Shown here one piece after another: positions 12,869-15,516 of a stretch of DNA of 64,000 nucleotides. The notes beneath the pieces are model-generated. The model did no database searches. It was not told the DNA's origin and saw nothing but the letters and a program-made list of their open reading frames with translations. The position numbers were made by a program, and so were the translations under genes. Within the stretch, counting starts at the first letter, position 1. Each line of letters begins with the position of its first letter. Source of the stretch: Haloarcula sp. CBA1129. GTDB lineage: Archaea; Halobacteriota; Halobacteria; Halobacteriales; Haloarculaceae. The stretch spans positions 1,302,001 to 1,366,000 of the forward strand of contig NZ_RKSM01000001.1 in assembly GCF_008729015.1 (NCBI RefSeq), in the 5' to 3' direction.

Positions 12869-14026
12869 ATGGACTTCGAACTGACAGAAGAGCAACGACA
12901 GATTCAGGACGAGATCGCCCGATTCGCGGAAAACGAAATCAAGCCCGTGGCGACCGAGTACGACACGGAAGAGAAGTTCCCCCGAGAAATCGTCGAGAAG
13001 GCCGCCGAAATGGGTCTGACAGGTGCGAACATTCCGCTGGAGTACGGCGGTGCAGGCTACGATACGCTGACAAACGCCATCATCGCCGAGGAACTGTTCG
13101 CAGCCGATCCCGGTATCGGCCTGAGCATCCAGTCGGCCGCGTTCGGTGCTGACGCCCTCATCGGGTTCGGCTCAGAGGCCCAGAAAGAGGAGTACTTAGA
13201 GCCGGTCGCGACGGGCGACGCCATCATGGGCGCAGCCATCTCCGAGCCCGATACCGGCTCAGACGTGTCGTCCGTGTCGACACAGGCACGAAAAGACGGC
13301 GACGACTGGGTCATCAACGGCAACAAAATGTGGATTACCAACGGCTCGGTCGGTGACTACTTTGTCGTGCTCTGTGAGACCGACCCGGACGCAGAGGGAC
13401 GCTACAACGGCTTCTCGCAAATTCTCGTCGAGTCCGACCGCGACGGGTTCGAGGCCGAGAAGATTACCGGAAAGCTGGGAATTCGCGCGTCGGACACGGC
13501 AGAACTCATCCTCAACGACGTGCGCGTCCCCGGGGACAACCTTGTTGGCACGCGCGGGGCCGGCTTCCTCCAGATCATGCAGTTCTTCGACGAGACCCGG
13601 ACCGGCGTGGCCGCACAGGGTGTCGGTATCGCCCGCGGAGCCGCCGAGCGCGCTCTGGAGTACGCACAGGACCGCGAGCAGTTCGGCCAGTCCATCTCGG
13701 AGTTCCAAGCCATCCAGCACAAGCTCGCCGAGATGTTCACCGAAATCGAGGCGGCACGACAGCTCACACACAAGTCCGCATGGAGCGTCGACAACGACGC
13801 CGATCAGCTCACCCAGTTGGCCTCGATGGCCAAGGAGAAGGCCTCCCGCGTCGCCGTCGAGACAGCCGACGAGGCCGTCCAGATTCACGGCGGCGCTGGC
13901 TACGTCAACGACTTCGATGTCGAGCGGTTCTACCGCGACGCCAAGATCACCCAGATCTACGAGGGGACGACCGAAATCCAGAAGAACATTATCGCCCGGG
14001 AACTGCTCGGGAAAGGCATGACCTGA
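12869..14026 (+). CDS. Acyl-CoA dehydrogenase
   Basis: A 385-residue FAD enzyme with the helical N-terminal domain starting [11 protein letters not shown], the middle beta-domain with [11 protein letters not shown], and the C-terminal four-helix domain containing the [10 protein letters not shown] motif whose glutamate is the usual catalytic base. It catalyses the first oxidation step of beta-oxidation, passing electrons to ETF. It is transcribed divergently from the fused dehydrogenase/hydratase gene with 113 bases between starts. A TATA-like TTTATTTC lies around 12819-12826. Chain-length or branched-chain specificity is not resolvable. Confidence 0.93.
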
Positions 14027-14106
14027 GCACGCTGCAGCGCTCGGCGATACTTCTGTTTCACGAACGGCCGATCCTCTCAGGCGAGACAGTGGGTAAGCGA
14101 ACCACT

Positions 14107-14117
14107 GCTTTTTAAGC
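14107..14117 (+). promoter_or_regulatory. TATA-like box upstream of the cysE leader
   Basis: GCTTTTTAAGC is a haloarchaeal-style TATA element about 27 bases before the ATG at 14143. Transcription would therefore start almost at that ATG, making the short frame leaderless and leaving about 160 bases before cysE. Assigned by pattern only. Confidence 0.4.
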
Positions 14118-14142
14118 TACTGACCAAGTAGTTGAGCCAACC

Positions 14143-14232
14143 ATGGGCGACCAAGTCCCACGCCGTGCCACTCGCCCGCTTCAGACTGGAGCCAGTTGCC
14201 GCTCTCTCCGTCGCTGTTGTTGTCCCCGGTGA
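14143..14232 (+). CDS. Possible Cys-rich leader peptide upstream of cysE (29 codons)
   Basis: A 29-codon frame starts at the ATG at 14143 and ends at TGA 14230-14232, 69 bases before cysE. The peptide contains Cys at residue 19 and a Cys-Cys-Cys run at residues 25-27, just before the stop. A TATA-like element sits at leaderless spacing upstream, and a perfect 6-bp hairpin (GGTCCG, loop of 6, CGGACC) follows at 14237-14254. Cysteine-codon runs before a cysteine biosynthesis gene recall bacterial cysteine-responsive leader peptides. The peptide is arginine-rich, unlike normal haloarchaeal proteins, so chance is a real alternative. Confidence 0.35.
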   Translation: MGDQVPRRATRPLQTGASCRSLRRCCCPR

Positions 14233-14301
14233 CTTCGGTCCGGTGATTCGGACCACGACCGACTGTCTCGTGCGCAGACGATACGCTCACCCACATACAT
14301 A

Positions 14302-14859
14302 ATGTTAGACCGACTGAAAGCGGATATCCGTACAGCACTCACAAAGGACCCGGCGGCAACGAGCGCCGTGGAGGTCGCACTGACGTACCCCGGCCTGCAC
14401 GCGATCTGGGCCTATCGGATTGCTCACTGGCTCTGGGGCCACGACCGGACGATGCTTGCCAGACTCATCTCCCATGTCACGAGGTTCCTGACCGGCGTCG
14501 AAATCCACCCCGCCGCGGAGATCGGCGAGCGGGTGTTCATCGACCACGGGATGGGCATCGTTATCGGCGAAACGGCCGAGATCGGCGACGACGTGCTCCT
14601 GTACCACGGCGTCACCCTCGGCGGCACCTCGATGCGCCGAGAGAAGCGCCACCCGACAGTCGAGGACGGCGCGACCATCGGCGCTGACGCCTCGATAATG
14701 GGGCCGATAACCGTCGGTGAGAACGCCTCCGTCGGGGCTGGCGCTGTCGTCGTCGACGACGTGCCCCCGGAGACGACAGTCGTCGGCAACCCGGCGGAGC
14801 CGGTCGGTGCTGCCGGTGTCGCCTCACCAAACCCAGACCCAATCATCGCCGACGGCTAA
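14302..14859 (+). CDS. cysE: Serine O-acetyltransferase
   Basis: A 185-residue protein with the CysE N-terminal helical segment and a hexapeptide-repeat beta-helix containing [16 protein letters not shown] and YHGVTLGGT, the acetyl-CoA and serine-binding core with the catalytic His. It makes O-acetylserine, the precursor of cysteine. It is shorter than E. coli CysE (273) but matches the short form found in many archaea and Gram-positives. There is no clear Shine-Dalgarno sequence before the ATG. A Cys-rich short frame and hairpin precede it, and a DNA glycosylase gene follows 45 bases downstream. Confidence 0.92.
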
Positions 14860-14904
14860 CGGCGACAGACACGTTCTTTTCCGTCGAGCTAGTACCACAG
14901 AGCC

Positions 14905-15516
14905 ATGAGTGACTCGCCGCACGAGGCGTTACGCGCAGACCCCGATATCGGGCCGCTCGTCGAGACACACGGGGAACTCACGCTCGATTCGGCGTCGGAC
15001 CTCTTCGAGCGGCTCGTCGTCTCGATTCTCCGCCAGCAGGTGTCGATGGCGTCGGCCGCCGCGACGCGTGAACGGCTGTTCGACACTGTCACCGTGACGC
15101 CGGGGGGCATCAAGAACGCAGACGACGAGGTGCTCCGGGACGCCGGGCTCTCACGCCAGAAGACCAGATACGTCAACGAAGTCGCCGACGCGTTTCTGGA
15201 ACACGACTACTCGCTGGCGACCTTCGAGGACGCCACCGATGAGGAAATCCACGAGGAGCTGACCGCCATCACCGGCGTCGGCGACTGGACCGCGAACATG
15301 CAACTCCTGTTCGCGTTCGGCCGCGAGGACGTGTTCCCGGTCGGCGATCTGGGCATCCGCAAAGGATTCGAAGCCGTTGTCGGCGAGGGGTACAGTCGCA
15401 CGGAGATGCGGGAGTACGCCGAGCGGTGGTCGCCGTATCGGAGCTACGCGAGCCTGTATCTGTGGCGCGCCAGCGAGGACATCGCCGAGAGTGTCGCGGA
15501 AGTGAGTGAGGACTGA
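14905..15516 (+). CDS. DNA-3-methyladenine glycosylase (AlkA-like, HhH-GPD superfamily)
   Basis: A 203-residue base-excision repair enzyme. The helix-hairpin-helix segment is ITGVGDWTANM, followed by the FPVGDLGIRKG motif whose Asp is the catalytic residue of the HhH-GPD family. SILRQQVSMASA matches the AlkA/Mag-type glycosylase core. There is no iron-sulphur cysteine cluster, which separates it from Nth/MutY. It would remove alkylated bases such as 3-methyladenine. It lies 45 bases after cysE on the same strand, probably a separate function in one transcript. Confidence 0.88.
   Translation: MSDSPHEALRADPDIGPLVETHGELTLDSASDLFERLVVSILRQQVSMASAAATRERLFDTVTVTPGGIKNADDEVLRDAGLSRQKTRYVNEVADAFLEHDYSLATFEDATDEEIHEELTAITGVGDWTANMQLLFAFGREDVFPVGDLGIRKGFEAVVGEGYSRTEMREYAERWSPYRSYASLYLWRASEDIAESVAEVSED

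Follow-up and report, generated by a model that had tools for sequence, protein, structure and literature searches.

A cysteine-rich frame before cysE

Does the short, Cys-rich, hitherto unlisted frame that stands directly before cysE in Haloarcula sp. CBA1129 sense cysteine on behalf of that gene? Serine O-acetyltransferase (CysE) catalyses the first committed step of cysteine synthesis, and the frame lies in the window (the whole 64-kb stretch of DNA analysed here) at a spacing that suggests a leaderless message. The relevant features are as follows:

14109–14115, plus strand: TATA-like promoter box TTTTTAA, beginning 34 nt 5' of the ATG at 14143
14143–14232, plus strand: leaderless short frame of 29 codons and a stop, proposed cysteine-sensing leader peptide
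14197–14199, plus strand: isolated Cys codon (residue 19); of 12 aligned relatives with 29 codons, 10 also have Cys here
14215–14223, plus strand: three consecutive Cys codons, TGT TGT TGT (residues 25–27), the proposed sensor
14233–14301, plus strand: 69-nt spacer between the leader stop and cysE
14237–14254, plus strand: 6-bp hairpin GGTCCG-GTGATT-CGGACC just after the stop, lineage-restricted
14302–14859, plus strand: cysE, serine O-acetyltransferase, the proposed regulated gene, which exceeds the curated cut-off of the cysE equivalog TIGR01172 (E 5.4e-73)

An earlier note on this DNA had placed the frame, its four Cys residues, the box, the hairpin, the 69-nt gap, and the cysE start, all of them correctly. 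The frame encodes MGDQVPRRATRPLQTGASCRSLRRCCCPR, with the tail ...RRCCCPR immediately before the stop. Given the known spacing of archaeal TATA boxes, a box 34 nt before the ATG predicts a transcription start at or near the leader ATG; initiation is expected at 14143 or within about 5 nt before it. cysE follows the leader directly. Since the spacer contains neither a promoter-like box nor a Shine-Dalgarno sequence, cysE most likely is read from the mRNA that begins at the leader.

An alternative frame, 14132–14302, was rejected because stops break it in 7 of 12 relatives. The curated RNA families of Rfam, riboswitches and the T-box included, gave no match at E ≤ 1 across 13900–14950. The upstream gene (12869–14026) encodes an acyl-CoA dehydrogenase and ends 116 nt from the leader ATG; it is a common, not a constant, neighbour of cysE in the family.

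Our reading, drawn from sequence comparison and held at a probability of about 0.82, is that the frame acts in cis on cysE, as a leader peptide that senses cysteine.

Conservation among close relatives

All 14 distinct sequences from close Haloarcula relatives share four properties: the start ATGGGCGA; a length of 28–30 codons; a stop at the same place; and two to five Cys clustered in the latter half of the frame. The stop codon itself switches freely among TGA, TAG, and TAA while its position stays fixed, and length changes within the frame are always whole codons. Cys codons swap between TGT and TGC, and the cluster can shift by one codon (for example, RCCCRPQ in L003 and SCCCCR in L008). 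One genome of the same genus, L017, has no leader before cysE.

The remainder of the peptide behaves differently from the Cys cluster. Across 12 leader sequences of equal length, variable sites are distributed 17/17/17 over the three codon positions, and pairwise differences number 361, 381, and 350, respectively. With no third-position excess, the leader body appears to be free of protein-like constraint. Such even variation is expected if only codon identity at the Cys run matters.

Two classes of the proposed leader in the haloarchaea

The wider comparison covered 94 haloarchaeal cysE loci, of which 46 carry a class A leader, 14 carry a class B leader, and 34 have none. Class A, to which the window belongs, is defined by a leaderless-spaced ATG, a frame of 23–32 codons, Cys codons near the end, and a stop before cysE. 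This anatomy recurs, with a body that cannot be aligned, beyond the close relatives: the genus adds 11 genomes, and other genera, among them Halosimplex and Halorientalis, have it too; Haloarcula rara (L019/L032) is one carrier. Immediately before the stop, class A frames read ...RRCC, ...CCRC, ...ACRCCC, ...AACCCCC, ...RRCCC, ...GCRCQ, and similar; the tail is ...VRRCCC in Halosimplex pelagicum (L036) and ...RRGCCRC in Halorientalis pallida (L037). Two class A members, L023 and L128, have isolated Cys only, with neither CC nor CxC. The distance from the leader stop to cysE is 32–88 nt (median 69), mostly 48–88, the value of 32 occurring only in L019.

The promoter assignment holds across the class. 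An A+T hexamer (6/6) lies 20–40 nt before the leader ATG at 38 of 45 class A loci, and the remaining seven have a 5/6 match. At the same distance before cysE itself, a 6/6 box is found at 0/45 loci, and GGAG, GAGG, or AGGA at −18 to −4 of cysE likewise at 0/45. Moreover, the 45 class A cysE genes together contain only 10 Cys codons. A nearly Cys-free enzyme fits a gene that is needed when cysteine is short.

Class B comprises 14 loci, from the Natrialbaceae (Natrinema, Natrialba) and two other families, with the same promoter spacing. Cys occupies codon 22 in all 14, and the cluster falls within codons 21–24 (RCCR or CCC, but one C alone in L053, L109, and L175). These frames run past the Cys codons into cysE, out of register with it, and end after 4, 8, or 20 nt of overlap. 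Overlaps of this kind are seen in L028, L047, L093, L096, L110, L168–L170, and L178.

The earlier note had asked to see the same anatomy in relatives. Far beyond Haloarcula, relatives keep the frame with its length, leaderless spacing, and Cys cluster; the hairpin is kept only in part, even within Haloarcula (see L122 and L010, below). The note's reading of a cysteine-sensing leader is thus supported: what is conserved is the frame with its spacing and Cys run, and its association with cysE.

On a cysE tree of 94 rows, leaders are confined to one of two large groups, the other (15 rows) having none, and the class labels require 11 changes compared with 39 in shuffles. The simplest reading of this distribution, on a tree whose root split is weakly supported, would be one gain, several losses, and a switch between classes A and B. 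The leader stays with cysE where the acyl-CoA dehydrogenase neighbour is absent or farther off. Some members that lack a leader (L172 and L174, for example) have a promoter-like box close before cysE.

Codons, a nucleotide motif, or a protein?

Is it the Cys codons that are kept, or a nucleotide string that happens to encode them? In the last ten codons of 45 class A loci, TGY triplets average 2.76 in the leader frame, and 0.02 and 0.07 when the alternative frames are read; at least two in-frame TGY occur at 43 of the 45 loci, and at 0/45 for the other frames. A string similar to GTCGCTGTTGT does recur in many members, as it would if this were the core of a DNA or RNA motif bound by a regulator, the Cys coding being incidental. 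That reading is very hard to reconcile with Cys that is retained through different nucleotides (TGCTGCTGTTGCTGC in L143, GGCTGTCGCTGTCAG in L127), with exchanges of TGT for TGC and shifts by whole codons, or with TGY being 40–120 times commoner in frame than out of frame, and we regard it as highly improbable.

Equally improbable, in our judgement, is a functional Cys-rich microprotein, such as a metal binder, that merely precedes cysE. Haloarchaea do contain many Cys-containing zinc-finger micro-proteins (PMC10716476), but these are recognized by two C(P)xCG motifs in a conserved protein, and the leader has no CPxCG pair. Its body drifts with no third-position excess, and the Cys run comes 0–3 residues before the end in the majority of class A frames; class B carries it mid-frame.

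Chance expectation and other targets

The earlier note had allowed that so short and Arg-rich a peptide might be a product of chance, and the genome is indeed G+C-rich. An exhaustive frame scan covered 2.46 of the 4.05 Mb of this genome. Under strict rules (ATG frames of 15–60 codons whose distance to a downstream ORF, itself at least 100 codons long, is 20–150 nt), CC or CxC falls within the last 8 residues of 23 among 3870 short frames (0.6%). When a 6/6 A+T hexamer at promoter distance is required as well, 80 frames remain, and the single one with a Cys tail is the cysE leader. Looser rules (8–60 codons, −30 to 200 nt from the ORF) give 5 Cys tails in 249 promoter-linked frames, the cysE leader included. 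A chance open frame with no function is contradicted by every conservation and frame test, and we consider it extremely improbable; the genome-wide frame counts, the conservation, and the in-frame Cys codons do not bear out the note's caution.

A census blind to cysteine gave the same picture. Upstream ATGs were chosen solely by a 6/6 A+T box 20–40 nt before them, which yielded 44 of the 94 cysE loci. The boxed frames have CC or CxC at residues 18–32 in 41 of these 44, and the other three (L023, L053, and L128) have an isolated Cys within the same interval; L169 has two boxed ATGs, the second of which opens the Cys frame. Upstream frames of non-haloarchaeal cysE genes are at background level (3/369).

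Pattern searches were made without reference to cysE. A box, an ATG, and TGYTGYTGA were sought in 57 genomes of the family: 30 places matched, six of them true in-frame frames that end in CC and a stop. Five of the six stand directly before cysE, four in genomes new to the analysis; the remaining one, which overlaps a longer ORF, has the look of a chance match. With a looser whole-genome pattern there were 42 matches, compared with 66 in a reversed control, and thus no excess; among 30 loci read from it, an in-frame Cys tail occurs only at cysE. A search for CCC and a stop under strict spacing came back empty across 145 genomes of the order, so no wider regulon is seen.

PALP/cysK-like genes were considered as further targets and rejected, as no such frame lies upstream of them in this genome; the near miss, a frame of 19 codons upstream of the PALP gene at C1:3101259, contains no Cys. 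Two side observations may be recorded. At G000:C1:900255 (minus strand), a frame of 15 codons, MILVTCCCPLQYSNE, has three consecutive Cys and an A+T box and stands 84 nt before a 131-codon ORF. The small contig C5 and chromosome C1 have in common the start of one PALP-family gene and its upstream sequence (L210, G000:C5:1096; L207, G000:C1:1440668), either a recent duplication or an assembly leftover.

A proposed route from stalled ribosome to cysE expression

We infer the translation of the leader, the stalling, and the direction of the response as follows. The mRNA would begin at the leader's own AUG and carry both frames. With cysteinyl-tRNA plentiful, ribosomes would pass the Cys run and exit at the stop, and cysE would be held down; with cysteinyl-tRNA scarce, a ribosome would stall on the Cys codons, and cysE expression would rise. 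Because the class A Cys codons are last or nearly so, their side chains presumably are still inside the ribosome at termination, and so would not act as free thiols. The quantity sensed would then be the rate of decoding, that is, charged tRNA-Cys.

How such a stall would be passed on to cysE is less certain. In the window, the element just past the leader stop is the 6-bp hairpin, possibly a pause or termination element. Wherever a relative has both arms, the central four pairs are kept; L122 has lost the 5' arm, L010 has a reduced stem, and covariation is no better than in shuffles. The 64-kb window contains 236 perfect 6-bp hairpins, or about 0.25 expected per 69 nt, so the hairpin taken alone is not unusual. 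Partial conservation even within Haloarcula, shuffle-level covariation, and commonness led us to reject it as an essential, conserved part of the leader. The whole leader folds no more strongly than shuffles (z-score +0.5), and this, together with the hairpin's loss in L122 and reduction in L010, leaves no sign of the classical pair of mutually exclusive terminator and antiterminator hairpins.

The more divergent class A loci have something else. A T/C tract (TTCTC, TCTTTTC, and similar) lies at most 24 nt after the stop in 29 of 33 of them, and the next 24 nt contain one in 0/33. In the clade to which the window belongs, the small hairpin follows the leader stop and the tract is missing; loci outside the clade that have the tract include L016, L018, L036, L132, and L155. 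The motif for intergenic termination in Haloferax volcanii combines a T stretch with a TC dinucleotide, and a reporter put termination at 95% for a T5C sequence and at 59% for one hairpin (PMC7237163). A T/C tract after the stop, set beside these tested terminators, favours premature termination as the output.

Provided that the leader is real, we therefore take a transcriptional output as the most likely for class A, the window included, at roughly even odds. Polymerase would be prone to termination at the T/C tract (in Haloarcula, at the hairpin) just past the leader stop, unless a ribosome held on the Cys codons right behind it blocked this, perhaps by excluding FttA/aCPSF1. Steric exclusion between the ribosome and FttA on archaeal polymerase has been proposed (PMC11616081). 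Translational coupling in H. volcanii fades beyond about 30 nt, as Huber et al. 2023 are cited in PMC12548453; the usual class A gap of 48–88 nt argues against simple termination and reinitiation.

For class B, overlap with cysE makes occlusion of the start the easier explanation: ribosomes translating through the leader would cover the cysE start, and a stall upstream would free it. Could the same sensor have a translational output in all species, controlling access to the cysE start by RNA pairing or occlusion, with no transcription termination? Three observations would suit this: the class B overlap itself; a consensus helix between the Cys run (alignment columns 74–81) and columns 120–128, in which 96.9% of cells are paired and which 4 of 500 shuffles equal, the structure having been derived from the same alignment; and the description of mycobacterial polycysteine leaders, in the account given by PMC13236596, as translation attenuators. 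Covariation in the helix is weak, the folding z-score is +0.5, and no class A locus (0/45) offers a Shine-Dalgarno sequence to hide. We view a translational output throughout as a doubtful but real alternative.

Returning to a transcriptional output for class A, we offer tentatively, at somewhat less than even odds, a specific form of it: an attenuator with no alternative-hairpin switch, in which a ribosome stalled some 22–27 codons from the RNA 5' end would shield polymerase from termination at the T/C tract. A second lineage would have turned this leader into an overlapping, translational switch.

Relation to known leaders

In mycobacteria, polycysteine leaderless short ORFs are described as cysteine-responsive attenuators (Canestrari et al. 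2020, doi 10.1111/mmi.14498, as reported in PMC9094748, PMC9031893, and PMC13236596), and were first proposed in PMC4633059. The cysE leader resembles them, so far as those accounts describe them, in several respects: a leaderless AUG at a promoter-set distance (the box at −34, the start predicted); a short frame with consecutive Cys codons near its end; a place upstream of a cysteine or sulfur gene; and conservation among relatives. On the same accounts, it differs in its archaeal transcription and ribosome, in the absence of Rho (to our knowledge, archaea have none), in its single target, cysE, and in its two architectures, with the stop before cysE or the frame overlapping it. An origin independent of the mycobacterial leaders is likely.

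Like the trpL, hisL, and ilv attenuators, the cysE leader is short and rich in codons for the product of the pathway, and a response to charged tRNA is expected. Unlike them, it has a leaderless start and no conserved pair of terminator and antiterminator hairpins, with a T/C tract or a small hairpin instead. uORFs have been seen by mapping of transcription start sites in long 5'-UTRs of H. volcanii (PMC4983044). These too are short frames upstream of haloarchaeal genes; unlike the Arg-rich cysE leader, they have low isoelectric points, and we found none described there as sensing an amino acid. In the open-access literature, to which this statement is limited, our searches turned up no archaeal leader peptide described as sensing an amino acid. 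The cysE leader thus is apparently an unreported archaeal form of a control known in bacteria.

Mycobacteria and haloarchaea are both rich in leaderless mRNAs. Leaderless polycysteine leaders common to the two would suggest that this sensor was taken into use convergently. If the proposal is true, the cysE leader would also provide a compact natural test system for the proposed mutual exclusion of ribosome and FttA on polymerase (PMC11616081), and archaea would sense a metabolite through transcription-translation coupling or through the position of a ribosome on the mRNA.
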